From: Streptomyces sp. SLBN-31
Lineage (GTDB): Bacteria > Actinomycetota > Actinomycetes > Streptomycetales > Streptomycetaceae
Assembly (NCBI RefSeq): GCF_006715395.1
Contig: NZ_VFNC01000001.1
Span: 3,286,001 to 3,350,000 of the forward strand
Length of the DNA: 64,000 nucleotides
Direction: 5' to 3'
The notes beneath the pieces were generated by a model. The model had not been told where the DNA came from, ran no database searches, and worked only from the letters and a program-made list of their open reading frames with translations. This document shows, in pieces, positions 15,638-32,255 of this stretch (its first letter is position 1; each line of letters opens with the position of its first letter). Made by a program: the position numbers and the translations under genes.

Positions 15638-17467
15638 TCACGACAGAGGCGGGTAGGCGTTCTGCATGAGTTGCCGGAACTGGGCGGAGAACCAGTGCCC
15701 GGCCAGCGGCGCGTTCGGCAGGGCGCCGGTGGGGTTGTTGCCGTTGAGGACGTTGCCACCGTAGGTGGGGTCACACATGCGGTCGAAGCCCTTGCCCTCG
15801 TCGTTGGAGACGGCGGAGCTGGCACCGTCGGACTCGCCCGGGGGCTTGACCCACACGTAGGCGTCGATTCCGGCGGCCGGAGAGGCGGTCGGCCGCTGGC
15901 CGAGGCCGGCACCGCTCTGGTTGCACCAGTTGCCGGCGTGGATGCGCCGGTCGATGCGGCCGCCGTTGACGTAGTCGTCGACCGAGGTCAGCGGTCCGGG
16001 GCCGGTGGGCCGGGCGGAGCCGCCCCAGCCGTTGCGGGAGGTGTCGATCAGCATGCCCAGACCGGAGTTGAACCCGGCCGCGACCAGCTTGTCCCGCAGC
16101 GCGACGGCGTACGACTGCTCGTCCACGTACTGGTTCCAGTCGACCCACTTCGACTGGCGCACGGTCTGCCCGTTGACCGTGTCGGTGACCTTGAAGTTCG
16201 GTTCCTTGGTGGGGCTGTAGTTGGCGGTGTTGACGATGAACCCCGTCACGTCGTTCACGCTCGCGCCGTTGGTCGTGGCGACCTTGGCGAACTCCTGCAC
16301 GGCCGGCCCGAGGTTGCTGTCCCAGCCGAGCCACCCGTGGTGACCGGCGTCGATGTAGTTGTAGACGTTGGGGATGGCCCCGAGCTTGTCCAGGGCGTAG
16401 GAGACGCCCTTCTCGTAGTTGCCGTTGCTCTTCATGGTCACGCAGGCGGCGGTGGTGCTGTTGGTGCCGCCGGCGTTGGTGACCAGGTTGGGCAGCGAGT
16501 CGGGTTCGATGACCGTGGCGATCCGCAGGCCCGCGTACTTGGAGTCGGACAGGATGGTGGCGATGGGGTCGATGTACTGGGACTTGTACTTGTCGATGTC
16601 GTCCGGCCCGAGTTCGCCATTGGAGGCGAGGGCGGCGCAGTCGCGGCCGGGCAGGTCGTAGATGACCAGCTGGACGACGAGTTCGCCGGAGCCCTTCTGC
16701 TTCAGCGCTTCGTCGAGGTGGGCGCGCAGGCCCATGCCACCGTTCACGCCGTTGATGGCGGCGATCCGGTCGAGCCATACGGCGGTGGACTGGTCGGCGA
16801 TCCGGCTGCCACCCGGCTCGGCGGCGGCGTGCGCAGACCACTCGGGGTTCACATAACCCTTGGCCCCGGCATAGGGATTGTCGACCCGGCCGCCGCTGCC
16901 GCCACCGTTGTCTCCGCCCGTGCTGCCGCCCGTGGTGCCGCCTGTGCTTCCACCGGTGGTGCCGCCTGTGCTTCCACCGGTGGTGCCACCGGTGCTGCCG
17001 CCTGTGCTTCCTCCGGTGGTGCCACCAGTGCTGCCACCCGAGCCGCCGTCGTCGACATTGCAGGTGACGCCGTCGAGGGTGAAGGTCGCGGGCACGGCGT
17101 TGGTGCCGCTGTAGGACCCGTTGAAGCCGAAGCTCACCGAACCACCGCTCGCCAGCGCGCCGTTGTAGCTCTCATTGGCCGCGGTGACGGCGGCACCGCT
17201 CTGGGTGAGCTTCGCATTCCAGAAGTTCGTGACCTTCTGGTTGCCGGAGTACGACCACTTGACGGCCCAACTCGACTTGGCCGTGCCGTTGTTGGTGACC
17301 GTGACGGCCGCGGTGAAGCCGGTGTCCCACTGGTTCTGCACCTTGTAGTCCACGGTGCAGGGGGTCGAGGCGGTGGCGGCGCCGGCCGGCAGCGTCAGGA
17401 GCGCCGTCCCGGAGGTGCCGGCGACCAGCGCAAGCGCGGCGACGAGCGACATTCTCGTACGACTCAT
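15638..17467 (-). CDS. Secreted CBM2-GH6 cellobiohydrolase/cellulase
   Basis: A 609-residue exported enzyme. The signal peptide MSRTRMSLVAALALVAGTSG ends near AGAATA. An N-terminal CBM2 cellulose-binding domain (residues 35-140) has CTVDYKVQNQWDTGFTAAVT at its start and a Cys near its end. Next is a long Gly-Ser-Thr linker, then a GH6 catalytic domain (about residues 200-609). GH6 motifs include VIYDLPGRDCAALASNGEL with the catalytic Asp, NVYNYIDAGHHGWLGW, and the ending AYVWVKPPGESDG. GH6 enzymes cut cellulose with inversion, here probably from chain ends. The ATG at 17467 has AAGGA ten bases upstream. An imperfect cellulase operator lies about 360 bp upstream. Confidence 0.93.
   Translation of the reverse strand: MSRTRMSLVAALALVAGTSGTALLTLPAGAATASTPCTVDYKVQNQWDTGFTAAVTVTNNGTAKSSWAVKWSYSGNQKVTNFWNAKLTQSGAAVTAANESYNGALASGGSVSFGFNGSYSGTNAVPATFTLDGVTCNVDDGGSGGSTGGTTGGSTGGSTGGTTGGSTGGTTGGSTGGTTGGSTGGDNGGGSGGRVDNPYAGAKGYVNPEWSAHAAAEPGGSRIADQSTAVWLDRIAAINGVNGGMGLRAHLDEALKQKGSGELVVQLVIYDLPGRDCAALASNGELGPDDIDKYKSQYIDPIATILSDSKYAGLRIATVIEPDSLPNLVTNAGGTNSTTAACVTMKSNGNYEKGVSYALDKLGAIPNVYNYIDAGHHGWLGWDSNLGPAVQEFAKVATTNGASVNDVTGFIVNTANYSPTKEPNFKVTDTVNGQTVRQSKWVDWNQYVDEQSYAVALRDKLVAAGFNSGLGMLIDTSRNGWGGSARPTGPGPLTSVDDYVNGGRIDRRIHAGNWCNQSGAGLGQRPTASPAAGIDAYVWVKPPGESDGASSAVSNDEGKGFDRMCDPTYGGNVLNGNNPTGALPNAPLAGHWFSAQFRQLMQNAYPPLS
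16885..17055. repeat. Tandem repeat encoding the Gly-Ser-Thr linker of the GH6 enzyme
   Basis: Degenerate copies of a 12-24 bp unit encode repeated GGSTGGTT-type segments between the CBM2 and GH6 domains. Linkers of this kind commonly vary in copy number between strains, and the DNA repeats here are near-identical and could recombine. Confidence 0.85.
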
Positions 17468-17829
17468 GAGTGCGGGTTCCTTCTCCCTGAAGTGGTCATG
17501 CGGGTTGAGGACGTGCGGAGTTCGCGCAGCCCGAAGGGACGCGCAGGGCGCGCGTGGCCGTGCCGTTGGCAGCACGGAGCAGACTCGCCTGGTGCTGGTG
17601 GGCCGACTCTCAGGCCGGGGGAGGAGTTGATCGCCGTGCCGTCCGCGTGCCGGCCGAGGAGACGGCGGCGGCCCGGGCGACGGTGGCGGTCGAGGAGACC
17701 GGCAGGACCGGCCGGCCCCGGCTCACGTGGGACCCGGCTTCGTCGGCGATGGTAAAAGTGCTGAACGCGGGGGGTGTCGCATGAGCGACTCCTTGCAGCT
17801 TGGCGCATCGTGACGGATGCGTCGACTGA

Positions 17830-17843
17830 TGGAACCGCTCCCA
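17830..17843. promoter_or_regulatory. Imperfect cellulase operator (CebR/CelR type)
   Basis: TGGAACCGCTCCCA matches the palindromic operator TGGGAGCGCTCCCA at 12 of 14 positions; the right half is perfect. It is the only operator-like site between the GH6 gene start and the next operator at 17972, so it may serve the GH6 gene. The distance to the GH6 start (about 360 bp) is long. Confidence 0.5.
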
Positions 17844-17971
17844 CTGGTGCAACGGACGGTAGCGCCAACACAACTGATTGCACAGGGGTGTTGCTCGATT
17901 TTTCGAGCTCGTTCGCTTCGAACGATTCAACTTCTTAACGTCTTGACCGGAGCCGCCCCCTTCCCCACTAT

Positions 17972-17985
17972 TGGGAGCGCTCCCA
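17972..17985. promoter_or_regulatory. Perfect cellulase operator TGGGAGCGCTCCCA
   Basis: The exact 14-bp palindrome is known as the binding site of LacI-family cellobiose-responsive repressors (CebR, CelR) in front of actinobacterial cellulase genes. Downstream on the forward strand are a strong ribosome site and the short reading frame at 18041-18193 rather than a cellulase. Confidence 0.9.
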
Positions 17986-18040
17986 CTGGTTCAAGCCTTG
18001 ACCCCCCTCGAGCCGCTCTCGCAAGGAGGGAACCAGAAAC

Positions 18041-18193
18041 ATGAATTCCGGACGCGTGCACGGAGTCGGGCCCCGGTCCGCGCCGAACGCCGGCCGGGGC
18101 GGACCATGGCCCGAAGGTTACGATCCGCCACGCAGACGCCTCGTCGGTGGCCGCCGGCTCGTACGCGGAGCCTCTCCAACCGCCCCCCTCTGA
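18041..18193 (+). pseudogene. Orphan start and short frame behind a cellulase operator (probable remnant)
   Basis: A textbook ribosome site (AAGGAGGG, 18023-18030) stands ten bases before an ATG at 18041. The site lies 38 bases downstream of the perfect cellulase operator. The frame gives only about 50 residues (MNSGRVHGVGPRSAPN...), with no signal-peptide hydrophobic core, before a TGA at 18191. The layout is that of a cellulase leader, so this is best read as the front end of a deleted or frameshifted secreted-enzyme gene. A genuine small leader peptide is possible. The rest of the 17468-18388 stretch shows no convincing gene. Confidence 0.45.
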
Positions 18194-18325
18194 AGCTTTG
18201 CGTGCGCGACTCCGTCGCAAGCCGACGGGGTCACCCCGCCGGGCGGTCCTCACCCCCCGAGGGTCGCCCGGCACCCGATCTTGTCAGGGGCATGATCTTC
18301 GACTCCTGCCCCTGTGAGATTGCAT

Positions 18326-18339
18326 TGGGAGCGCTCCCA
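18326..18339. promoter_or_regulatory. Perfect cellulase operator upstream of GH12 gene
   Basis: A second exact TGGGAGCGCTCCCA lies 50 bases before the GH12 start codon, the usual position for repression by a CebR/CelR-type protein. A degraded half-site, TGGGCGCTCT, follows at 18346. Cellobiose is the expected inducer; the cebR gene is not in the window. Confidence 0.92.
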
Positions 18340-18388
18340 AGCAAATGGGCGCTCTCGCCGTCCCCTCACACCCCTGCGGAGGAACCGC

Positions 18389-19513
18389 ATGCAACATTCG
18401 AAACCGCGAGCCAGGGTGCGAGCCCTGCTCGGCACGCTGCTCACGTCACTTCTCGCGCTGACGGCGCTCCTGACCGCGACTTCGCCGTCGCATGCCGACA
18501 CGACCATCTGTGAGCAGTTCGGCTCGACCACGATCCAGGGCCGGTACGTCGTTCAGAACAACCGCTGGGGGACCAGCGCCACCCAGTGCATCACCGCCAC
18601 GAACTCCGGTTTCAGGATCGCCCAGGCGGACGGCTCGGTCCCGACCAACGGCGCCCCGAAGTCCTACCCTTCGGTGTTCAACGGCTGCCACTACACCAAC
18701 TGCTCGCCCGGAACCAACCTCCCGGCCCGGCTGAGCTCGATCTCGAGCGCGCCCTCGAGCATTTCCTACAGCTACGTCAACAACGCGGTCTACGACGCCG
18801 CGTACGACATCTGGCTGGACCCCACACCCCGCACCGACGGCGTGAACCGCACCGAGATCATGATCTGGCTCAACCGCGTGGGATCCGTCCAGCCGGTCGG
18901 CTCGCAGACCGGCACCGCCACCGTGGCCGGGCGTTCGTGGCAGGTGTGGTCCGGCAACAACGGCTCCAACGACGTACTGTCCTTCGTCGCGCCGTCGGCG
19001 ATCGACAGCTGGAGCTTCGACGTGATGGACTTCCTCCGGCAGGCCGTCTCCCGTGGACTCGCTCAGGACAACTGGTATCTGACGAGCGTTCAGGCGGGCT
19101 TCGAGCCCTGGCAGAACGGCGCCGGACTGGCCGTGACGTCGTTCTCCTCGACCGTGAACCTCGGCGGCGGCACCCCCGGCGGCCCCGGTGGCTCGTCGGC
19201 CTGCAAGGTGACCTACGGCACGAACGTGTGGCAGGGCGGCTTCACCGCCGACGTCACGGTGGCCAACGGAGGTTCCTCCCCGGTGAACGGCTGGAATCTG
19301 GCCTTCACCCTGCCCGCGGGACAGAAGGTCACGAGTTCGTGGAACGCGAACCTCTCCGGCTCCTCGGGGGCGGTGACGGCCGGCGGTACGCAGTACAACG
19401 GGAACATCGCGGCCGGCGGACAGGTGTCCTTCGGGTTCCAGGGCACCTACGACGGGACCTTCGCCAAGCCGGCCGGCTTCACCCTGAACGGAACGGCCTG
19501 CACCACGGCCTAG
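18389..19513 (+). CDS. Secreted GH12-CBM2 endoglucanase
   Basis: A 374-residue exported enzyme. A signal peptide (MQHSKPRARVRALLGTLLTS to SPSHA) is followed by a GH12 beta-jelly-roll domain (residues 37-255). NRTEIMIWLNRVG contains the catalytic nucleophile Glu, and QAGFEPWQNGAGL contains the acid/base Glu. A Gly-Pro linker (GGGTPGGPGGSS) joins a C-terminal CBM2 (CKVTYGTNVWQGGFTADVTV to NGTACTTA) with its paired Cys. GH12 enzymes cut beta-1,4-glucan internally with retention. GGAGG six bases before the ATG sets the start, and a perfect cellulase operator lies 50 bp upstream. Together with the GH6 gene it forms a cellulose-degrading pair. Confidence 0.94.
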   Translation: MQHSKPRARVRALLGTLLTSLLALTALLTATSPSHADTTICEQFGSTTIQGRYVVQNNRWGTSATQCITATNSGFRIAQADGSVPTNGAPKSYPSVFNGCHYTNCSPGTNLPARLSSISSAPSSISYSYVNNAVYDAAYDIWLDPTPRTDGVNRTEIMIWLNRVGSVQPVGSQTGTATVAGRSWQVWSGNNGSNDVLSFVAPSAIDSWSFDVMDFLRQAVSRGLAQDNWYLTSVQAGFEPWQNGAGLAVTSFSSTVNLGGGTPGGPGGSSACKVTYGTNVWQGGFTADVTVANGGSSPVNGWNLAFTLPAGQKVTSSWNANLSGSSGAVTAGGTQYNGNIAAGGQVSFGFQGTYDGTFAKPAGFTLNGTACTTA

Positions 19514-19576: not shown

Positions 19577-19714
19577 GCCCGGCGACGACCACCACCCCCA
19601 CGACGGTCTTCGATCCCGACTTCCTTCGGCCAGGCCTCAGTTGATGACGCGCCGAAGAGTCGTGTGCCCCGTACCTCGGGCCGTAGGATCGGTGATCTCG
19701 TGGGGGAGGTGGTG

Positions 19715-20737
19715 ATGGGCAAGCGACGCCCTGGGGCGCCGACGCTGGAAGAGGTGGCCGCCCACGCCGGGGTGGGGCGGGGCACGGTCTCCCGAGTCGT
19801 CAACAACGCGGCCGGAGTCAAGGAGTCGACACGCCGTGCCGTGCAACGCGCCATCGAGGAACTGGGGTACGTGCCCAACCTCGCCGCCCGGTCCCTGGCC
19901 GGGAGACGGGCCGACGCGGTGGCGCTGGTGCTCACGGAGCCGGACTGGAGGATGTTCGCCGAGCCCTTCTTCTCGGAGATCGTCCGCTCGCTCGGCGACG
20001 CGTTGGCGGACACCGGGATGCAACTGCTGCTGACCCTGGTCCGTTCGGAGGACGAGCGCCAACGCTTCCTGGAGTACGCGCGGGGCGGCCGGGTCGACGG
20101 GGTCCTGATGATGTCCGTGCACGCCGACGATCGACTGCCCGACATGCTGGCCGAGGCGCGGTTGCCGACCGTGCTGTTGGGACGCCGCTCGGGCGACGAG
20201 TACATCAGCTACGTGGACGCGGACAACGTCGGCGGTGCCCGCAACGCCGTGTCCCGTCTGCTGAAACAGGGCCGCAGGACGATCGCCACGATCACGGGCC
20301 CGCTGGACATGTACGTCGCCCAATGCCGGCTGCGCGGCTATCAGGACGCCCTGGAATCGGCCGGTCTGAAAGGCTCGCGGTCCCTGGTCGCCGAGGGCGA
20401 CTTCACCGAGGACAGCGGGCGCCGCTCCATGGCGGAACTCCTGCGACGACACCCGGAGATCGACGGCGTCCTCGCCGCGTCCGACACCTCGGCGGCGGGG
20501 GCGCTGCAGGCGCTGCGGGCGGCCGGACGGCGGGTGCCGGAGGACGTCGCCGTGATCGGATTCGACGACTTCTCACTGGCCCAGCGCACCGAGCCACGCC
20601 TGACGACCGTGCGTCAGCCGGTGGAGGACATGGGACGAGCCATGATCAGACTGTTGCTGGAGGAGATGGAGGAGCCCTTCGTCGCCTGGCGGCACGTCAT
20701 CCTGCGTACGGAACTGATCGTCCGCGAATCGGCCTGA
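19715..20737 (+). CDS. LacI-family transcriptional regulator
   Basis: A 340-residue protein. The N-terminal HTH reads APTLEEVAAHAGVGRGTVSRVVNNAAGVKEST, and the hinge helix LGYVPNLAARSLAG follows. The periplasmic-binding-like effector domain (residues 62-338) ends with FDDFSLAQRTEPRLTTVRQPV. Such repressors bind sugars or oligosaccharides and leave palindromic operators with a central CG. The ATG at 19715 has GGGGAGG upstream. It lies between the cellulases and the eight-gene glycosidase run on the same strand, and candidate palindromes lie downstream at 20783 and 21117. It is therefore the obvious candidate regulator of the arabinosidase genes. Confidence 0.93.
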   Translation: MGKRRPGAPTLEEVAAHAGVGRGTVSRVVNNAAGVKESTRRAVQRAIEELGYVPNLAARSLAGRRADAVALVLTEPDWRMFAEPFFSEIVRSLGDALADTGMQLLLTLVRSEDERQRFLEYARGGRVDGVLMMSVHADDRLPDMLAEARLPTVLLGRRSGDEYISYVDADNVGGARNAVSRLLKQGRRTIATITGPLDMYVAQCRLRGYQDALESAGLKGSRSLVAEGDFTEDSGRRSMAELLRRHPEIDGVLAASDTSAAGALQALRAAGRRVPEDVAVIGFDDFSLAQRTEPRLTTVRQPVEDMGRAMIRLLLEEMEEPFVAWRHVILRTELIVRESA

Positions 20738-20794: not shown

Positions 20795-21116
20795 ACGTAA
20801 GCGCTTCGACGGGAGGTCGGGACCGGCTGTCCGCGGAGTCACTGGCGTACCGCCGGAGGGGGCTCCGAAGCCGACGTACCGTCAGAAGAGCATCGCATGG
20901 GTCGCTTTCTGCGTGCTGGCCTTTTTGGTGCGACGCACCACCACGCCCCAGCTCATGGGCGTAATGAGGAGTCCTCAGAGGGCCGGGCCCCGCCGTCGGC
21001 CTCACCCGCGTGGCCCGCGGCATCCACGGCGCAGGCGACCGCGTTGTCGTCCGTCCGCCGCCGCACCGCAACTTTTCGACGCTGCAAACGCCTTGCGAAC
21101 CGCGTGAATCAGCAGT

Positions 21117-21128
21117 CGAATCGATTCG
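21117..21128. promoter_or_regulatory. Candidate LacI-type operator, copy 2
   Basis: CGAATCGATTCG is a perfect 12-bp palindrome with central CG, in the roughly 570-bp non-coding stretch between the LacI gene and the first GH54 gene and 178 bp before that gene's start. Apart from these sites and the repeated GAGCGCTTCGAC at about 21236, I see nothing in 20738-21305. Confidence 0.4.
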
Positions 21129-21296
21129 CGACGAGGTTCACAGCAGGGGACTCCGCACGCTTTACCACCCCGCAAGACCCGGAGCATCGTCTCCCCCGGA
21201 ACCTCTCTGCAATCCCACTGCACCACGGCACGTTCGAGCGCTTCGACACTCGTCAGCGCCACCACCACACCCCGCGCGGGTTGCGCCGGCACGTAG

Positions 21297-22874
<1,578 letters not shown>

Positions 22875-22930
22875 CCGATTCGTGTGTTCGTTCGCCCCCA
22901 CCCACTGTCCCGCACCAGTGAGGAACGCTC

Positions 22931-24061
22931 ATGAAGAAGTACCTCTTACCTCTGGCCGTGGCGTTGACGGCCGCGCTGGGCATCGGCGCCGCGTCACCCG
23001 CGACGGCCGCCACCGGCAGCGGGTCGCCGCCTTCCGCGGACCGTGCCGCCGCAGCGCCCGCCGCCCTGCGGCTGATGCCGTTGGGTGACTCGATCACCTG
23101 GGGCGTCGGCAGCCCGTCCGGAAACAGCTACCGCAGCTTCCTGTGGAACCAGCTGGCGTCCGAGGGGCACACGCTGGACTTCGTCGGCTCGGGCCGCAAC
23201 GGCGGCATGTCCGACCCGGACAACGAAGGCCACTCCGGCTGGCGGATCGACCAGATCGCCGGCATCGCGGACTCCGTGCTGGCCCGCTACCGCCCTAACG
23301 TGGTCACCCTGGAGATCGGCACCAACGACCTCAACGGCAACTACCAGATCCCGACCGCGCCCGACCGGCTGCGTGCGCTCATCGACCAGATCGTCCGCGA
23401 CGCCCCCGACGCCACCGTCCTGGTCGGCACGGTGATCGTCTCCACGAGCGGCACCGAGGAAGCCAACCGACCCGCATTCAACGCCAAGCTGCCCGGGATC
23501 GTCCAGGCGGAGCAGGCCGCCGGCAAGCACGTACGCCTGGTGGACATGAGCGCCCTGACCAGCGCTGACCTGTCCGATTCCCTGCATCCCAATGACAACG
23601 GCTTCCGCAAGATGGCGGACGCCTTCAACACGGGGGTACAGGCCGCGGACGCGGCGGGCTGGATCAAGTCACCGCCATCGGCGGACGGCCAGGTCCGCTC
23701 CGGAATCGCAGGCAAGTGTCTTGACGTGAGCGGCGGCAACAGCGCCAACGGGACCGCCGTGGACATCGCGACATGCAACGGCTCCGCCGCGCAGCAATGG
23801 TCCGCCCGCTCCGACGGCACGCTGCGGGCGCTCGGCAAGTGCCTCGATGCCACCGGCCGCGGCACCGCCAACGGCACCAGGATCGGGATCTGGGACTGCA
23901 ACGGCGGCAGTAACCAGCAGTGGCAGTCCTACGGCGGCGGCTACCGCAATCCTGCCTCCGGCCGCTGCCTCGACGATCCCGAGTCGTCCACCGCCGACGG
24001 CACCCAACTGGTCCTGTGGGACTGCAACGGCGGCGCCAACCAGCAGTGGAACCTCATGTGA
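22931..24061 (+). CDS. Secreted SGNH/GDSL esterase with CBM13 module
   Basis: A 376-residue exported protein: signal peptide MKKYLLPLAVALTAALGIGA ending near ATAA, then an SGNH hydrolase domain (residues 45-245). Block I is MPLGDSITWGVG, block III carries EIGTNDLNGNY, and block V is DSLHPNDNG with the catalytic Asp and His. The C-terminal 130 residues are a three-fold ricin-type CBM13 (SAQQW, SNQQW, ANQQW). Secreted SGNH enzymes with carbohydrate modules usually remove acetyl or other acyl groups from polysaccharides. It lies 57 bp after the first GH54 gene and probably shares its transcript. A hairpin terminator follows. Confidence 0.92.
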   Translation: MKKYLLPLAVALTAALGIGAASPATAATGSGSPPSADRAAAAPAALRLMPLGDSITWGVGSPSGNSYRSFLWNQLASEGHTLDFVGSGRNGGMSDPDNEGHSGWRIDQIAGIADSVLARYRPNVVTLEIGTNDLNGNYQIPTAPDRLRALIDQIVRDAPDATVLVGTVIVSTSGTEEANRPAFNAKLPGIVQAEQAAGKHVRLVDMSALTSADLSDSLHPNDNGFRKMADAFNTGVQAADAAGWIKSPPSADGQVRSGIAGKCLDVSGGNSANGTAVDIATCNGSAAQQWSARSDGTLRALGKCLDATGRGTANGTRIGIWDCNGGSNQQWQSYGGGYRNPASGRCLDDPESSTADGTQLVLWDCNGGANQQWNLM

Positions 24062-24082
24062 GGTGACCGGGGTCCGTGAACA

Positions 24083-24116
24083 CCGCGTCCGGCACGGCGG
24101 TCGTCGCCGGACGCGG
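24083..24116. terminator. Hairpin terminator after the SGNH esterase gene
   Basis: CCGCGTCCGGC (24083-24093) pairs with GCCGGACGCGG (24106-24116) over a 12-base loop, followed by a short T run. It splits the glycosidase run into two likely transcripts. The remaining 250 bp before 24366 hold only weak promoter-like sequence (TTGACA at 24196). Confidence 0.75.
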
Positions 24117-24365
24117 CTTTCGGCATGCCCTCGAACGGCCTCCATCGAGCGTCAGACATGGGATGAATAGCGTCTTCGATTACCTGGACAGCGCTATTGA
24201 CACGGCTGCGAGCCTGTGAGATCACTATGCGTCATGGGATGTCTGAGTGTTCCTTGTGGGCGCTCTCGGGCGAACTGACGGGAGCGGTCGACACCCCTTT
24301 TCGAGCCCTTTCGGGCAGGCACAGCACTTTCCGTCCCCTTCCCCCCCGCACACCGAGGACACGGA

Positions 24366-25871
24366 ATGCAGCCTTCATCCGCTCCGCCCTGCCGCCCCGC
24401 GGCTCGCACGCCACGCTTACCGGCGGCCGCAGCCGTATGCGTGCTGGCCATGCTGGCCATGTTGCTGGCCGGCGCGCCGACGTGGTCGGCACCGGCATCC
24501 GCGGCGTCCCTGGTGAGTTCCGCGTCGGGACGCTGCCTCGATGTCAGGGGCAACGTCGACACGTCGGGCACCGCACTGCAGATCTGGGACTGCAACGGCC
24601 AGGCCAACCAGGCGTTCGAGCTCACGGCTGCGGGCGAGCTGAGGACAATGAACGGCACCAGGTGCGTGGACGCCTACGACAACCGGACGGCGCCCGGGGC
24701 CCCAGTGGTCATCCGCCCGTGCGACGGATCGGCGACCCAGACGTGGCGCGAGAACTCCGACGGGTCCGTCACCGGCACCGCGTCCGGGTTCTGCCTGGAC
24801 GTCAACGGGGCGGCAACGGCCAACGGCACGGCGGTCATCCTGTGGACCTGCAACGGCCAGAGCAACCAGAAGTGGACCACGGCGACGGCTCCGCCCCCGC
24901 CCGGCAGCCCGGGGCCGTGCGACATCTACGCCGCCGGCGGCACGCCGTGCGTGGCCGCGCACAGCACGGTGCGGGCGCTGTACGCCTCGTACAACGGCCC
25001 CCTGTACCAGGTCAGGCGCGCCTCGGACAACGCGACGAAGGACATCGGAGTGCTGGCGACGGGCGGGTTCGCGAATGCGGCCGGCCAGGACGCGTTCTGC
25101 GGGGGCACCTCGTGCGTGATCACGGTCGTCCGCGACCAGTCCGGACACGGCAACGACCTCTGGTACCAGGGGTCGGCACAGGTCCCCGGATCGAGCCAGA
25201 GCAGTCCCGCGAAGGCGACCTCGGAGTCACTGACCGCCGGCGGCACCAAGGCGTACTCGTTGTACATCAACCCCGGCAACAGCTACTGGCGGGACGGCCA
25301 TCTGACGGGCGTGCCGACCGGTTCGGCGCCCGAAGGGGCGTACATGGTGACCAGCGGCACCCACGTCAACGGTGGCTGCTGCTTCGACTACGGCAACAGC
25401 GAGACGACCAGGAAGGCCGACGCCGCCGGGGCGATGGACGCGATCAACTTCGGTACCGAGTGCTGGTTCGGCGGCTGCTCCGGCAGCGGTCCCTGGGTGC
25501 AGGCCGATCTCGAGTGGGGCCTGTACCCGGGCGGCAGCCAGTCCTGGAACCCCAACCAGCGGGCGTTTCCGAGCAAGTTCGTCACCGCGATGCTGAAGAA
25601 CAACGGCACCTCGAGGTTCGCCCTCAAGGGCGGCAACGCCCAGTCAGGGGCCCTGACCACGCTGTGGGACGGCGGACTTCCCGGCGGATACAGCCCGATG
25701 AAGAAACAGGGTGCCATCGTCCTCGGCAGCGGCGGCGACTGCTGCAAGCCCGGCGGCGGCGCCAACCTGAGCGCCGGCACCTTCTACGAGGGCGCCATGG
25801 TCGCCGGCTACCCCTCCGACGCGACCGACAACGCCGTGCAGGCCAACATCACCGCCGCCGGCTACCGCTGA
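24366..25871 (+). CDS. Secreted GH54 alpha-L-arabinofuranosidase with N-terminal CBM13 (paralog 2)
   Basis: A 501-residue exported protein in which the module order is reversed. After the signal peptide (ending PASA) comes a CBM13 (residues 47-175; ANQAF, TQTW, SNQKW), then PPPPGSPG, then GH54 (residues 182-501). GH54 signatures are [43 protein letters not shown] (nucleophile Glu) and GSGGDCCKPGGG (acid/base Asp). The last contains an extra Cys pair not seen in the other two paralogs. It first follows the terminator and heads a run with the GH27 gene 40 bp downstream. It acts on arabinofuranosyl side chains; linkage preference may differ from paralogs 1 and 3. Confidence 0.92.
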   Translation: MQPSSAPPCRPAARTPRLPAAAAVCVLAMLAMLLAGAPTWSAPASAASLVSSASGRCLDVRGNVDTSGTALQIWDCNGQANQAFELTAAGELRTMNGTRCVDAYDNRTAPGAPVVIRPCDGSATQTWRENSDGSVTGTASGFCLDVNGAATANGTAVILWTCNGQSNQKWTTATAPPPPGSPGPCDIYAAGGTPCVAAHSTVRALYASYNGPLYQVRRASDNATKDIGVLATGGFANAAGQDAFCGGTSCVITVVRDQSGHGNDLWYQGSAQVPGSSQSSPAKATSESLTAGGTKAYSLYINPGNSYWRDGHLTGVPTGSAPEGAYMVTSGTHVNGGCCFDYGNSETTRKADAAGAMDAINFGTECWFGGCSGSGPWVQADLEWGLYPGGSQSWNPNQRAFPSKFVTAMLKNNGTSRFALKGGNAQSGALTTLWDGGLPGGYSPMKKQGAIVLGSGGDCCKPGGGANLSAGTFYEGAMVAGYPSDATDNAVQANITAAGYR

Positions 25872-25910
25872 CCCACCTCGCCCTCAACTCGGCCCAGGAG
25901 TCGATGACTT

Positions 25911-27560
25911 ATGCCCACGACCACACCGGGAACCAGACGCTTACGGCCCCTGCCCCCGCTCCCGTCCCTGCGCAGAATCCTGGCGCTCGTCTTCTCGACC
26001 GTGCTGCTCACGGCGGCCGCCCCGCTCCTCTTCCTCGGCACGGCGCAGCCCGCCGCCGCGCTCGGCAACGGGCTCGCGCCCACCCCGCAGATGGGCTTCA
26101 ACGACTGGAACGCGTACGGCTGCAATGTCTCCGAGTCGCTGATCAAGTCCACCGCCCAGGCGATGCACACCAACGGCATGCAGGCGGCGGGTTACACGTA
26201 CGTCAACATCGACGACTGCTGGATGACCCACAACCGGGACTCCGGCGGACACCTGGTGCCGGACCCGGCCAAGTTCCCCGACGGCATCAAGGGCACCGCC
26301 GACTACGTCCACTCGCTGGGGCTGAAGCTGGGCATCTACGAGGACGCGGGCACCGCGACCTGCGCGGGATACCCGGGCAGCCTCGGACACGAGACCACGG
26401 ACGCGCAGTCCTTCGCGTCGTGGGGCGTGGACTACCTCAAGTACGACAACTGCAACAACAACGGCGTCCCCGCGCGCACCCGCTACACCACGATGCGGGA
26501 CGCCCTGGCGGCCACCGGGCGGCCGATCCTGTACAGCCTGTGCAACTGGGGCCAGGAGAACGTGTGGACCTGGGGTGCGAGCGTGGGAAACAGCTGGCGC
26601 ACCACCGGAGACATCAGCCCCACGTACTCCAGCATGCTGTCGATCTTCCACAGCAACGTCGGACTGGCCTCCTACGCCGGACCGGGCCACTGGAACGACC
26701 CGGACATGCTGGAGATCGGCAACGGCTCGATGACGGCCACCGAGAACCGCAGTGAGTTCAGTCTGTGGGCGGAGATGGCCGCACCGCTGATCGCCGGCAC
26801 CAACATCCCGCAGGCCAGCGCCTCCACCCTGTCCGTCCTCACCAACTCCCGCGTGATCGCGGTCGACCAGGACCCCCTCGGCAAGCAGGGCACCCTCGTG
26901 TCCTCCTCGGGCGGCCTGGACGTGCTGGCCAAGCCGCTGGCCAACGGGGACGTGTCGGTGGCCCTGTTCAACGAGACGGGCTCCACGGCGACCATCACCA
27001 CCACCGCGGCCGCCATCGGCAAGACCGGGGCGACCTCCTACACCCTCACCGACCTGTGGTCGGGCGCCACCTCGACCACCTCCGGCACCATCAGCGCCTC
27101 GGTGCCGGCCCACGGCACCGTGATGTACCGGGTCGCGGGCGGCACCGGCGGCGGTACGACCGCTGTGACCGGCCCACTGCACGCCGTCGGTTCGGGCAAG
27201 TGCCTGGACGTACCGAACTCGACCACCACCGCGGGCACCCGGGTGGAGATCTGGACCTGCAACGGCGGCGCCAACCAGACCTGGACGCACACCGCCTCCG
27301 ACCAGCTCACCGTCTACTCGGGCAGCGGTCAGCTGTGCCTGGACGCCTACGACAACCAGACCACGCCGGGCACGAAGGTGGAGATCTGGCAGTGCAACGG
27401 CCAGAGCAACCAGCAGTGGTCGCTGAATTCCGACGGCACGGTCACCGGCCGCCAGTCCGGCCTGTGCCTGGGCGTCGCCGCGGGCGCCACGGCCGACGGA
27501 GCCCTCACGGAGCTCCAGACGTGCAACGGGAGCAGCAGCCAGCGATGGACGCTGGGCTGA
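25911..27560 (+). CDS. Secreted GH27 alpha-galactosidase or beta-L-arabinopyranosidase with CBM13
   Basis: A 549-residue exported enzyme. The signal region ends near QPAAA; GH27 spans residues 50-415 and CBM13 residues 420-549. GH27 signatures are PQMGFNDWNAYGCN, VNIDDCWM, DYLKYDNCNN with the nucleophile Asp and GHWNDPDMLEIG with the acid/base Asp. ENRSEFSLWAEMAAPLIAGTN is also typical. GH27 enzymes remove terminal alpha-galactose, and some Streptomyces members prefer beta-L-arabinopyranose. Among arabinofuranosidases the second activity is attractive, but sequence alone does not decide it. The ATG at 25911 has AGGAG ten bases upstream. The next gene starts 40 bp after its stop. Confidence 0.93.
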   Translation: MPTTTPGTRRLRPLPPLPSLRRILALVFSTVLLTAAAPLLFLGTAQPAAALGNGLAPTPQMGFNDWNAYGCNVSESLIKSTAQAMHTNGMQAAGYTYVNIDDCWMTHNRDSGGHLVPDPAKFPDGIKGTADYVHSLGLKLGIYEDAGTATCAGYPGSLGHETTDAQSFASWGVDYLKYDNCNNNGVPARTRYTTMRDALAATGRPILYSLCNWGQENVWTWGASVGNSWRTTGDISPTYSSMLSIFHSNVGLASYAGPGHWNDPDMLEIGNGSMTATENRSEFSLWAEMAAPLIAGTNIPQASASTLSVLTNSRVIAVDQDPLGKQGTLVSSSGGLDVLAKPLANGDVSVALFNETGSTATITTTAAAIGKTGATSYTLTDLWSGATSTTSGTISASVPAHGTVMYRVAGGTGGGTTAVTGPLHAVGSGKCLDVPNSTTTAGTRVEIWTCNGGANQTWTHTASDQLTVYSGSGQLCLDAYDNQTTPGTKVEIWQCNGQSNQQWSLNSDGTVTGRQSGLCLGVAAGATADGALTELQTCNGSSSQRWTLG

Positions 27561-27600
27561 CTCCGTGCCGCCCCTCCGCACCGCCACAGAGGAGGTCTCC

Positions 27601-29133
27601 TTGCCCGGATCAGCAACCGATCGCCGCCGAGGTCGACTCCCGGCCGCGTTCCTGATCGCCCTGGCTATGGCCCTGGCCGCACTGGGCACGCCGGCGTTCG
27701 CCACGTCCCCACGGGCCGGCACGAGTACGGCCGTCCACGCCTCGGCCCCTGCCGCCGCGGGCTCTTCCCTTCCCTGCGACATCTACGCCGCGGGCGGCAC
27801 GCCGTGCGTGACGGCGCACTCCACGACCAGGGCGCTCTTCACGGCGTACAACGGGCCGCTGTACCAGATCCAGCGGTCCTCCGACCACGCCTACCGCGAC
27901 ATCGGGGTGCTCGCCGCCGGTGGATACGCCGATGCCGCGTCCCAGGTGTCGTTCTGCGCGGGCACGTCGTGCACGATCACGAAGATCTACGACCAGACCT
28001 CCCGGCACAACGACCTGCCGATCTCCTGGGGCGGTTACTGGAAGGGCCCCGGCCCCAACGGATCCGACGTGGGCGCGGACGCCATGGCCCTGCCGGTGAC
28101 CGCGGCCGGACATCAGGTCTTCGGCGTGAAGGTCACCCCAGGTGTCGGCTACCGGCTCGACCACGCGAGCGGCGTGGCCACCGGCTCCCAGCCCGAAGGC
28201 ATCTACATGGTGACCTCGTCGAACTACACCAACCAGTGGTGCTGCTTCGACTACGGCAGCGGCGAGAACACCCACACCGACACCGGCAACGCCACCATGA
28301 ACGCCATCTACTGGGGCAACGCCTGCTGGTTCGGCGGCTGCACCGGCAGCGGTCCGTGGGTCGAGGCCGACCTGGAGAACGGCATGTTCCACACCAACAC
28401 CGGCTCCAACAAGGACCCGAACAACCAGGGCGTGCACTATCCGTTCGTCAGCGCCTGGCTGAAGAACAACGGCACCACCAACTTCACCCTCAAATACGGC
28501 AACGGGGCGAGCGGGGGCCTGACCACCACCTTCTCCGGACCCTTGCCCAACGGCTACTCGCCGATGAAGGTGGACAGTTCGGTCCTGCTCGGCACCGGCG
28601 GTGACAACAGCCCATCGGGGCAGGGCGAGTTCTTCGAAGGCGCGATGACGGCGGGCTACCCCTCCGACGCCACCGAGAACGCCGTACAGGCCAGCATCAC
28701 CGCCGCCGGCTACGGGACGGGCAGCGGTGGGGGAGGCACGCCGGGTCCGCTGCGTGCGGTGGGGGCGGGCAAATGCCTGGAGGTGCCGGGCGGTTCCACG
28801 ACGCCGGGAACGCAGACGCAGATCCGTGCCTGCACCGGCGCGGCGAACCAGACCTGGTCCCAGACGGCCTCCCATGAGCTGACCGTCACCGTGGGCGGCA
28901 GCCGCCTGTGCCTGGATGCCTCGGGACAGGGCACCAGCCCCGGCATCAAGGTCATCACCTGGACCTGCAACGGCCAGTCCAACCAGCAGTGGACGCCCAA
29001 CGCCAACGGCACGATCACCAGCACCCCGTCCGGTCTGTGCCTGGACGTCACCGGCGCCGCCACCGCCGACGGCACCCCCGTGCAGTTGTGGGCCTGCAAC
29101 GGCCGGTCCAACCAGCAGTGGACGCGCAACTGA
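27601..29133 (+). CDS. Secreted GH54 alpha-L-arabinofuranosidase with C-terminal CBM13 (paralog 3)
   Basis: A 510-residue exported protein. The start is the TTG at 27601, because GAGGAGG stands five bases ahead of it. The frame opens earlier but without a ribosome site. The signal peptide ends near PAFA. GH54 (about residues 55-375) shows LPCDIYAAGGTPCVTAHSTT, the pocket cysteines WCCFDYGSGE, EADLENGMFH (nucleophile Glu) and TGGDNSPSGQGEFFEG (acid/base Asp). CBM13 follows (ANQTW, SNQQW, SNQQW). Domain order is as in paralog 1, but the protein is clearly divergent, so this is an old duplication rather than a recent copy. Confidence 0.92.
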   Translation: MPGSATDRRRGRLPAAFLIALAMALAALGTPAFATSPRAGTSTAVHASAPAAAGSSLPCDIYAAGGTPCVTAHSTTRALFTAYNGPLYQIQRSSDHAYRDIGVLAAGGYADAASQVSFCAGTSCTITKIYDQTSRHNDLPISWGGYWKGPGPNGSDVGADAMALPVTAAGHQVFGVKVTPGVGYRLDHASGVATGSQPEGIYMVTSSNYTNQWCCFDYGSGENTHTDTGNATMNAIYWGNACWFGGCTGSGPWVEADLENGMFHTNTGSNKDPNNQGVHYPFVSAWLKNNGTTNFTLKYGNGASGGLTTTFSGPLPNGYSPMKVDSSVLLGTGGDNSPSGQGEFFEGAMTAGYPSDATENAVQASITAAGYGTGSGGGGTPGPLRAVGAGKCLEVPGGSTTPGTQTQIRACTGAANQTWSQTASHELTVTVGGSRLCLDASGQGTSPGIKVITWTCNGQSNQQWTPNANGTITSTPSGLCLDVTGAATADGTPVQLWACNGRSNQQWTRN

Positions 29134-29177
29134 CGCGTGAGACGCCCCCGGACCCCACCTGCGAAAGGAACCCGACC

Positions 29178-30241
29178 GTGTCAGCATTCAGACGGCTGCT
29201 GCGGCGCCTGCGTGCCTCGACGGCCGTGCTCACGGGCCTCGTCCTGGCCGCCGGCGGCCTCGTGGGAACGGCCGCCGCCCCGGCCCGGGCCGCCACCTCC
29301 ATCACCGTCGACGGCACCTCGGGCGGCCGGACCTTCGACGGCGTCGGCGCGATCAGCGGCGGAGGCGGCAACAGCAGACTCCTGATCGACTATCCCGAAC
29401 CTCAGCGCGGGCAGATCCTCGACTACCTCTTCAAGCCCGGCTACGGCGCCTCCCTGCAGCTCCTCAAGGCCGAGATCGGCGGAGACACCAACTCCACCTC
29501 GGGCGCCGAGCCGAGCCACCAGCACACCCGTTCCGACCTGAACTGCGACCGCGGCTACGAATGGTGGCTGATGGAGCAGGCCAAAGCCCGCAACCCGAGC
29601 ATCAAGCTGTACGGGCTCGCCTGGGGCGCCCCGGGATGGATCGGCGGCGGGAACTTCTGGTCCACGGACATGGTCAACTACCTGGTCTCATGGCTGGGCT
29701 GCGCCAAACAGCACGGACTGTCCATCGACTACCTCGGCGGTTGGAACGAGCGCGGCTACAACGTCTCCTGGTACGAGCAACTGCGCAGCGCGCTCAACAG
29801 CAACGGGTACGGCAGCGTCAAGATCGTCGCGGCCGACTCGGACTGGGGCGTGGCGAACGACGTGAACTCCAACCCTGCGTTCGCCGCCGCGGTGGGCGTC
29901 ATCGGCACGCACTACCCCTGCGGCTACCGCTCTGCCCAGTCCAACTGCTCGGTGCCGTCGGCCGCCACGTCGTCCGGCAGGCCCCTGTGGGCAAGCGAGA
30001 ACGGCTCGGACGACTACAACGGGGGAGCGACGGCCATGGCCCGCGGGATCAACCGCGGATACATCGACGGCCGGATGACCGCTTATCTCAACTGGCCGGT
30101 GGTCGCGGCGATCACGCCCAACCTGCCGTATCCCACCATGGGCCTCGCCCTGGCCCCACCGGCGCGGCAACGGCCAACGGCACCCTGCTGGAGCTGTGGA
30201 CCTGCAACGGCGCCGGCAACCAGACCTGGACCCGCAACTGA
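29178..30241 (+). pseudogene. GH59 galactosidase catalytic domain, 3' deleted and joined to a CBM13 tail
   Basis: From a GTG at 29178 (GAAAGGA upstream) the product has a signal peptide (to APARA) and a GH59 barrel. The barrel matches galactocerebrosidase-type enzymes: FDGVGAISGGGGNSRLLIDY, GYGASLQLLKAEIGGDTNST, GYEWWLMEQAKARNP, GWNERGYN with the acid/base Glu and LWASENGSDDYN with the nucleophile Glu. After PYPTMGLALA (about 30155) the beta-sandwich and lectin domains expected in GH59 are missing. The DNA continues as the last repeat of a CBM13 (TANGTLLELWTCNGAGNQTW, stop at 30241), but in a different frame. The GH59 frame instead runs on through this tail into the fucosidase gene without a stop. 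Confidence 0.85.
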
Positions 30242-30272
30242 CCTTCGTCTCGCAGACGTTGAGAGGCTCCGC

Positions 30273-32255
30273 ATGACTTCCTCCCCCCACCCGATCAGCC
30301 GCCGCGGCCTGCTGGCGGCGGCCGGCGCGGCCACGGCCTTCGGCCTGCTGCGGTTCGCCCCCGAGGCAGCCGCGACCGACGGACCCGCGAGCTACACCGC
30401 GACCTGGTCCTCCGTCGACCAACACCCCCCGGCCCCGGCCTGGTTCCAGGACGCCAAGTTCGGCATCTACTACCACTGGGGCGCCTTCAGCGTCCCCGCG
30501 TTCGGTAACGAGTGGTATCCGCGCAACATGTACATCGGCGGCTCGAACGAGAACAAGCACCACATCGCCACCTACGGCGACCCCTCGGTGTGGCCGTACC
30601 ACAACTTCATCGACGGCGCCCGCGACAAGGCGGGCAACCACGTCCAGTTCGCGCCCAAACCGGTGTCCCAGGGCGGCAGTTGGGATCCGGAGGCCTGGGC
30701 CCGTCTGTTCAAGTCGGCGGGTGCCCGGTTCGCCGGACCGGTCGCCGAGCACCACGACGGCTTCTCCATGTGGAACAGCCGCGCCAACCCGTGGAACTCC
30801 GTGCAGCACGGGCCCGGACTCGACCTCGTCGCCCTGCACGCGCAGGCCATCCGCGGGCAGGGCCTGAAGTTCATGGCCTCGCTGCACCACGCCTACCACT
30901 TCAACGGCTTCTACGACCACGTCCCGTCCCAGTCGGACCCCGCCCTGCGCGTCCTGTACGGACAGCAGGGCTCGGCGGCGGAGAACAAGCTCTGGTACGA
31001 CAAGCTGGTCGAGGTCATCGACGGTTACCGCCCCGACCTGCTGTGGCAGGACTTCGACCTGAACCTGGTGCAGGAGTCCTACCGGCTGCAGTTCCTCGCG
31101 CACTACTACAACCAGGCGGTCGCCTGGAACAAGGACGTGGTCGCGACCTACAAGGACGGGCTCGACAACAAGGGCGAGGTCTACGACTTCGAGCGCGGCG
31201 GCCCGGCAGGACTGCTCACCCCGTACTGGCTGACGGACGACAGCATCTCCTCCTCCAGCTGGTGCTACACGGTGGGCATCGGCTACTACTCGACGCAGGC
31301 GCTGCTGCACTCGCTGATCGACCGGGTCAGCAAGGGCGGCACCATGCTGCTCAACATCGCTCCGACGGCCGACGGCACCATCCCCTCCGGGCAGCAGTCG
31401 ATCCTGCTTGCCATGGGGGACTGGCTCGGCCGCTTCGGAGAGGCTGTCTACGGCACGCGTTCGTGGTCCAGTTACGGCGAGGGCCCCACCAAGATGGGCG
31501 GCGGCTCCTTCAGCGGACCGGTGGCCGGCAAACCACAGGACATCCGCTTCACCCGCAGCCAGGACAACAAGGTCCTCTACGCCACCGCGCTGGGCTGGCA
31601 GGGCGCGACGATGACCGTCACCACGCTGAACTCCGGCCAGATCAACCTCAGCAGCCTGACCGGCGCCCAACTGCTCGACAACGCCGCCGGCAGATATGTC
31701 GACCTGCCCGCCCCGACCCAGGACGCCTCCGGCCTGCACCTGGCCATGCCTTCGTCGAACCCGCCGTTCAGCGCCCTCGCCTACACCGTCAAGCTGACCT
31801 TCTCCGGCGAGATTCCCGTCCTCGGCGCACCGGGCGGCTCCACGACCTGGGTGAAGATCGCCAATGTGACCAGCGGGCTGGTGCTCGACAGCGGCGGCAA
31901 CGTCGCCTCCGGCTCCAACCTCAAGCAGTGGAACTACGACGGCAGCCCCAACCTGCAGTGGCGGCTGATCGACCTCGGCAACGGCTACCACCGCATCATG
32001 AACCGCGCCAACGGCATGGCCGCCGACAGCTGGGGCAACTCCGCCAACGGCGCGACCGCCCGGCAGGCGGTCTGGAACGGCGGCACCAACCAGCAGTGGT
32101 CGCTGAACAGCCTCGGCAACAACCGCTACCAGATCATCAACCGCGGCACGGGCACCGCACTCGACGGCAGCGGCAGCACCACTGCGGGCTCGACCGCGGT
32201 CATGTGGACCCCGAACGCCAGCGGCAACAACGCATGGACCATCACCGGCACATGA
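30273..32255 (+). CDS. Secreted GH29 alpha-L-fucosidase with C-terminal CBM13-like module
   Basis: A 660-residue exported enzyme with a twin-arginine-type leader (SRRGLLAAAGAATAFGL). The GH29 domain (residues 45-350) has PAWFQDAKFGIYYHWGAFSV, AKYHDGF-like AEHHDGFSMW and the nucleophile region PDLLWQDFDLNLV. GTMLLNIAPTADGTIP is also typical. A beta-sandwich and a ricin-like module (residues 525-660; NLQWRL, NQQWSLN, NNAWTI) follow. It removes alpha-linked L-fucose, for instance from arabinogalactan-protein or xyloglucan side chains. The ATG at 30273 has GAGAGG upstream and a complete export signal. The upstream GH59 frame is continuous with it, so a 1,025-residue fusion could also be produced. 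Confidence 0.92.
   Translation: MTSSPHPISRRGLLAAAGAATAFGLLRFAPEAAATDGPASYTATWSSVDQHPPAPAWFQDAKFGIYYHWGAFSVPAFGNEWYPRNMYIGGSNENKHHIATYGDPSVWPYHNFIDGARDKAGNHVQFAPKPVSQGGSWDPEAWARLFKSAGARFAGPVAEHHDGFSMWNSRANPWNSVQHGPGLDLVALHAQAIRGQGLKFMASLHHAYHFNGFYDHVPSQSDPALRVLYGQQGSAAENKLWYDKLVEVIDGYRPDLLWQDFDLNLVQESYRLQFLAHYYNQAVAWNKDVVATYKDGLDNKGEVYDFERGGPAGLLTPYWLTDDSISSSSWCYTVGIGYYSTQALLHSLIDRVSKGGTMLLNIAPTADGTIPSGQQSILLAMGDWLGRFGEAVYGTRSWSSYGEGPTKMGGGSFSGPVAGKPQDIRFTRSQDNKVLYATALGWQGATMTVTTLNSGQINLSSLTGAQLLDNAAGRYVDLPAPTQDASGLHLAMPSSNPPFSALAYTVKLTFSGEIPVLGAPGGSTTWVKIANVTSGLVLDSGGNVASGSNLKQWNYDGSPNLQWRLIDLGNGYHRIMNRANGMAADSWGNSANGATARQAVWNGGTNQQWSLNSLGNNRYQIINRGTGTALDGSGSTTAGSTAVMWTPNASGNNAWTITGT

Follow-up and report, generated by a model that had tools for sequence, protein, structure and literature searches.

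What is encoded where a single reading frame of Streptomyces sp. SLBN-31 enters as a GH59 enzyme and leaves at the stop codon of a GH29 alpha-L-fucosidase: a double glycosidase newly made by deletion, or a dead GH59 gene whose frame happens to stay open? The initial annotation had allowed for either. The features on which the answer turns are listed below, with coordinates given in the window, that is, the whole stretch of 64,000 nucleotides that was analysed.

29178..32255, + strand: open frame of 1,025 aa that begins at the GH59 start and runs on to the stop of GH29 (ORF listing, Pfam, chance estimates); most likely incidental
29178..30157, + strand: surviving 5′ part of GH59, with signal sequence, TIM barrel to about residue 326 and both catalytic Glu residues, the barrel end missing (PF02057 profile 1-271 of 294; alignments to 10 relatives and to galactocerebrosidase chains 4ccc and 3zr5)
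30153..30159, + strand: deletion junction, where full-length relatives have about 1,342-1,345 bp more; the loss shifts the frame (breakpoints scored on 7 relatives)
30158..30241, + strand: 84-nt remnant of the CBM13 tail of GH59 itself, out of frame with the barrel and ending at the former GH59 stop, TGA 30239-30241 (tblastn of the tail, alignments)
30261..30266, + strand: GAGAGG, ribosome-binding-site-like sequence of GH29 (sequence; an SD-like motif in 47 of 50 relatives by a broad pattern)
30273..32255, + strand: intact alpha-L-fucosidase of family GH29, 660 aa, bearing a leader of twin-arginine type (spotted by eye) and a C-terminal ricin-type lectin domain (PF01120, PF14200, PF00652)

The open frame joining GH59 and GH29

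That the GH59 frame remains open through its tail, across the fucosidase ATG and on to the fucosidase stop, as originally noted, is confirmed by the ORF listing: the open frame 28908-32255 (+) contains GTG 29178 and the GH29 ATG at 30273 in register, with 365 codons between them, and from GTG 29178 it stays open for 1,025 codons to the GH29 stop at 32255. In the 1,025-aa translation of 29178-32252 Pfam places Glyco_hydro_59 at residues 53-325 (profile positions 1-271 of 294) and Alpha_L_fucos at 399-755, followed by a ricin-type lectin domain; the peptide at the junction is CBM13 sequence translated out of frame.

A critical issue is how often such a frame would stay open by accident. Over the 115 bases from the junction to the GH29 start, a fraction of 0.47 of 20,000 mononucleotide shuffles remained open for the 38 codons, and 64% of positions in the window, counted over both strands and every frame, allow 39 codons without a stop. 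Relatives with separate GH59 and GH29 genes give the same picture: of 50, the equivalent frame reaches the GH29 start without a stop in 30, is in register with it in 15 and combines the two in 8; the other shifted frame is open in 17, in register in 17 and both in 10. These 50 are the loci, among 80 named ones, with GH29 within 300 nt – the remainder have no GH29 in the fetched DNA, some because the contig ends – and for 6 of the 50 the inferred GH29 start is a codon other than ATG and thus approximate. The run-on into GH29 is unremarkable, being no more than chance gives; high GC content combined with a one-in-three chance match of frame would explain an open frame joining the two genes. Considered as the sign of a selected fusion, the long open frame was rejected, given a chance openness of 47% and a frame both open and in register in eight relatives. 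In GC-rich genomes, as those eight of 50 relatives with separate genes illustrate, little can be concluded about fusion from an open frame that spans two genes, however long.

A probable deletion in a conserved gene

Comparison with relatives that carry an intact GH59, which the initial annotation had proposed, supports the deletion well: all 10 close relatives aligned first have one GH59, of 801-802 aa and with a CBM13 tail. More broadly, a single GH59 of 790-810 aa is present in 74 of the 80 named loci (those kept out of 417 relatives found), and a full-length GH59 in 48 of the 51 named loci with at least 86% identity. Fifteen further loci (L123-L137), from a search of 392 genomes, all encode 801-802 aa; some of these share a genome with a named locus, as other unnamed loci do (L034 and L064 are one such pair), and the sets are not additive. 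In 50 of the 80 named loci a separate GH29 gene begins within 200 nt of GH59, and in all 50 of these adjacent pairs the GH59 stop precedes the GH29 start. Damage of other kinds does occur: GH59 of L060, at 717 aa, has lost about 85 residues from within CBM13 without a change of frame; the frames of L080 (718 aa), L093 (442 aa) and L107 (675 aa) are shifted, some of these lesions possibly being sequencing errors; and in L108 and L110 the GH59 frame has no stop in the fetched DNA.

The segment missing from SLBN-31 measures 1,345 bp when relatives of 802 aa are the reference and 1,342 bp with those of 801 aa; both lengths leave a remainder of 1 on division by 3, and the deletion is therefore out of frame. 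Taking the range within one match of the best score, the breakpoint falls at 30153-30159 for five of seven relatives, at 30146-30157 against L035, and at 30164-30181 against L060, which has its own deletion. Two earlier observations hold good here: the barrel, said to stop near 30155, loses similarity at about 30157 (residue about 326) by Pfam and alignment, and the CBM13 tail reported in another frame is confirmed by alignment as a remnant reaching TGA 30239-30241. The flanks have at most a few bases in common at the join, on which ground recombination between long repeats was considered and rejected.

No locus examined other than that of SLBN-31 shows the deletion of about 1.34 kb. When the junction was searched against 100 genomes (79 with some match), only SLBN-31's own match, among those listed, spans both sides; listed matches to the barrel end finish by query position 258, and those to the tail and GH29 start begin at about 234 or later. 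Plasmid records yielded one match, 59.7% identical. With the GH59-specific part of L034 as query (335 aa, excluding CBM13), no significant match indicating a moved copy of the lost segment was found in the SLBN-31 genome (best E 0.121). The event we propose would have cost a conserved gene, lying just upstream of the GH29 fucosidase gene in a Streptomyces carbohydrate-enzyme cluster, the last part of its barrel, its beta-sandwich and lectin domain, and most of its CBM13.

Selection on the surviving part of GH59 bears on the age of the loss. Its mean dN/dS to the eight nearest sequences is 0.148, the 11th lowest of 54 (median 0.191); for GH29 the value is 0.192, 9th lowest of 38 (median 0.209), indicating ordinary selection. 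Both samples (54 GH59 and 38 GH29 sequences) comprise complete sequences down to about 86% identity. One change in the GH59 remnant falls at an otherwise invariant column. Private changes in the surviving GH59 number six nonsynonymous and 13 synonymous, a ratio of 0.46 that ranks 18th of 36 (median 0.48) among sequences, SLBN-31 included, with at least five synonymous private changes each; site counting puts the neutral expectation at 2.78. Over the surviving GH59 DNA the nearest sampled sequence differs by 6.9%, and all 89 compared are at least 3% away. Since the surviving part is without relaxed selection and its nearest sampled sequence is 6.9% away, the loss would fall late on the SLBN-31 lineage. 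The deletion thus looks recent, and an assembly error less likely. The same pattern of selection is, however, expected from a protein still in use or from an assembly error, and decay of the GH59 remnant is not demonstrated.

Surviving domains and the explanations weighed

What survives of GH59 is readily recognised: it matches PF02057 at 353.7 bits against a cut-off of 27, and its E191 and E274 align with the catalytic positions of GALC, which in the human enzyme are Glu198 and Glu274 according to PMC13187500. The barrel is nonetheless incomplete, the profile match ending at 271 of 294 as against 294 of 294 in L034, or about 26 residues short by GALC numbering (a hand count on the alignment). 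L034 has PF02057 to position 294 of 294, a GH59 central domain, a GH59 C-terminal lectin domain and a ricin-type lectin domain; PF17387 (beta-sandwich or central domain) and PF21708 (lectin domain), both present there by Pfam, are absent from the SLBN-31 protein. In sum, the barrel is short of some 26 residues, and the beta-sandwich, the lectin domain with its conserved pocket Trp and most of CBM13 are gone.

PMC13187500 describes the human GALC barrel as residues 57-353, with twelve residues building the active site and pocket; the beta-sandwich supplies a pocket loop, the C-terminal part also contributes pocket residues, and the flanking domains rigidify the arrangement. The same three galactocerebrosidase domains are named in PMC5764952. 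By a hand count on alignments, nine of the twelve pocket positions listed in PMC13187500 lie inside the part that SLBN-31 keeps, and Arg396, Trp540 and Ile586 lie beyond it. On the alignment the L034 counterpart of human Trp540 is W524, a residue of the lectin domain that SLBN-31 has lost; Arg396 sits in a stretch without an L034 counterpart and carries no weight here. On this comparison, loss of GH59 activity is likely. Structure prediction gave models too poor to judge folding, the mean pLDDT being 54.3 for the intact protein of L034 and 49.2 for that of the run-on frame; in the L034 model most of 274-340 is below pLDDT 50, so that the helix predicted at 338-349, in the deleted part, counts for little. 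A protein search of the SLBN-31 genome for GH59 returned the copy at 29178 as its sole match; a second PF02057 match passes the Pfam cut-off but is a weak, incomplete one at 36.8 bits (E 1e-8, positions 25-188).

The neighbouring GH29 matches PF01120 over profile positions 7-345 of 345 (293.2 bits), is full length at 660 aa, and is 75-92% identical to the 50 GH29 genes adjacent to GH59 (48 of 50 at 83% or above). An alpha-L-fucosidase activity is predicted for it. Its ATG and ribosome-site-like motif are kept, and expression from its own start would presumably continue; two other GH29 matches occur in the genome.

Our data point, with high probability, to a recent out-of-frame deletion that left a newly dead GH59 – a young pseudogene – beside an intact fucosidase, with the run-on frame as an incidental consequence. 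GH59 would qualify as a pseudogene by its observed loss of sequence and change of frame, together with a probable loss of activity. The joined frame being real, some read-through is conceivable: a ribosome that initiated at 29178 would produce the truncated barrel joined to GH29, the export leader lying inside the chain, and such a product would probably be misfolded, degraded or cut. Of what had first been suggested, then, the deletion stands and the dead GH59 is the best fit, whereas a functional fusion finds against it the chance run-on, the incomplete barrel, GH29's own start and the lack of a fused protein among the matches listed.

We think it unlikely, if worth serious thought, that a full GH59 gene exists in the real genome and that about 1.34 kb was dropped by an assembly or sequencing error. 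Full-length GH59 is the rule in relatives, and the remaining GH59 is free of relaxed selection, just as an intact gene would be; but assembly collapse normally needs a longer shared stretch than the few bases, at most, that the flanks have in common at the join, the genome is in three contigs rated 100% complete and 1.62% contaminated, and no other frame damage was found in the GH59 barrel or in GH29. Very improbable, to our minds, is a functional bifunctional enzyme, in which the deletion-made fusion is produced, exported and active on both sugars. A frame open and in register across the GH29 start, both catalytic Glu residues and an apparently constrained GH59 part are what such an enzyme would show; yet openness and register are expected by chance, the two modules are not both complete (the beta-sandwich and lectin domain being absent along with the barrel end), GH29 retains a conserved ribosome-site-like motif and ATG, the junction peptide is out-of-frame CBM13, and the export leader would sit between the two halves. 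Nor did searches recover a counterpart: from 7,996 candidates scored, none of the best 120 of 3,227 matches to the joined protein is a GH59-GH29 protein, those listed being GH29 without a GH59 domain, as are all 17 matches to residues 318-400. In the literature searched, mostly non-subscription, no publication title was found that reports such a fusion, and a search for pseudogenes, gene fusion or deletion in Streptomyces glycoside hydrolases found nothing. It is equally hard to credit that the 1,025-residue protein is secreted and stably made, its GH59 barrel riding on the fucosidase as a module that binds sugar or has weak activity.

Least probable of all, and by our estimate barely credible, is the idea that the cell makes a truncated barrel and sets it free, perhaps by cutting at the internal leader, and that this fragment keeps some activity. 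The barrel with its catalytic residues is there, and by a rough criterion 37 of 120 listed GH59 matches end near the barrel end; P0139 (378 aa, on a contig of 447,890 bases) stops shortly after the barrel and shows no obvious damage, so that barrel-only GH59 enzymes may exist. P0139 nevertheless retains the barrel end, extending about 36 residues further along L034 than SLBN-31 does, and many of the 37 may be fragments: three of eight sequences inspected (P0205, P0224 and P0131) seem to finish in out-of-frame peptide. Furthermore, in human GALC the beta-sandwich and C-terminal residues help to form the pocket, as PMC13187500 has it.

Genomic setting and comparison with known systems

The GH59-GH29 pair lies within a run of carbohydrate enzymes, whose other members are as follows:

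22931: GDSL esterase, neighbour in the run
24366 and 27565: two arabinofuranosidase B-type enzymes, neighbours in the run
25911: alpha-galactosidase, neighbour in the run
32309: esterase with below-cut-off matches only to PHB depolymerase models, downstream of the pair

Ricin-type lectin domains are found on five neighbouring enzymes of the run, GH29 included (22931-32255), and at the DNA level the GH59 tail is 76-89% identical to other stretches of this region. A LacI-family regulator encoded close to where the run begins (19664-20737, +; NCBIfam matches below model cut-offs) is a candidate for controlling it; just downstream of the regulator gene stands a 674-aa open frame (20897-22918, +) with no Pfam or NCBIfam match at E 0.001. 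Upstream of the run, at 15638-19513, are GH6 and GH12 enzymes, each with CBM2 cellulose-binding domains.

The locus offers a clear case of apparently recent gene loss within a conserved run of polysaccharide-degrading enzymes. Were the fused protein real, it would show the one-step origin of a double enzyme, caught at birth.

Set against known systems, the GH29 of SLBN-31 is like other Streptomyces GH29 enzymes with a ricin-type lectin domain (660 aa) in length, in having its own ATG and in its ribosome-site-like motif; its sole unusual point is the in-register open frame upstream. With GH59 galactocerebrosidases and bacterial GH59 enzymes (PF02057, PF17387, PF21708) the surviving part shares a barrel to 271 of 294, both catalytic Glu residues and nine of the twelve pocket positions, but by comparison with intact L034 it lacks the barrel end, both the central and the C-terminal lectin domain, and the greater part of CBM13. 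Other damaged actinobacterial GH59 genes – those of L060, L080, L093 and L107, and the gene for protein P0224 – resemble that of SLBN-31 in that the frame is shortened or shifted within GH59; their lesions, however, differ from that of SLBN-31, being of other kinds and in other places.
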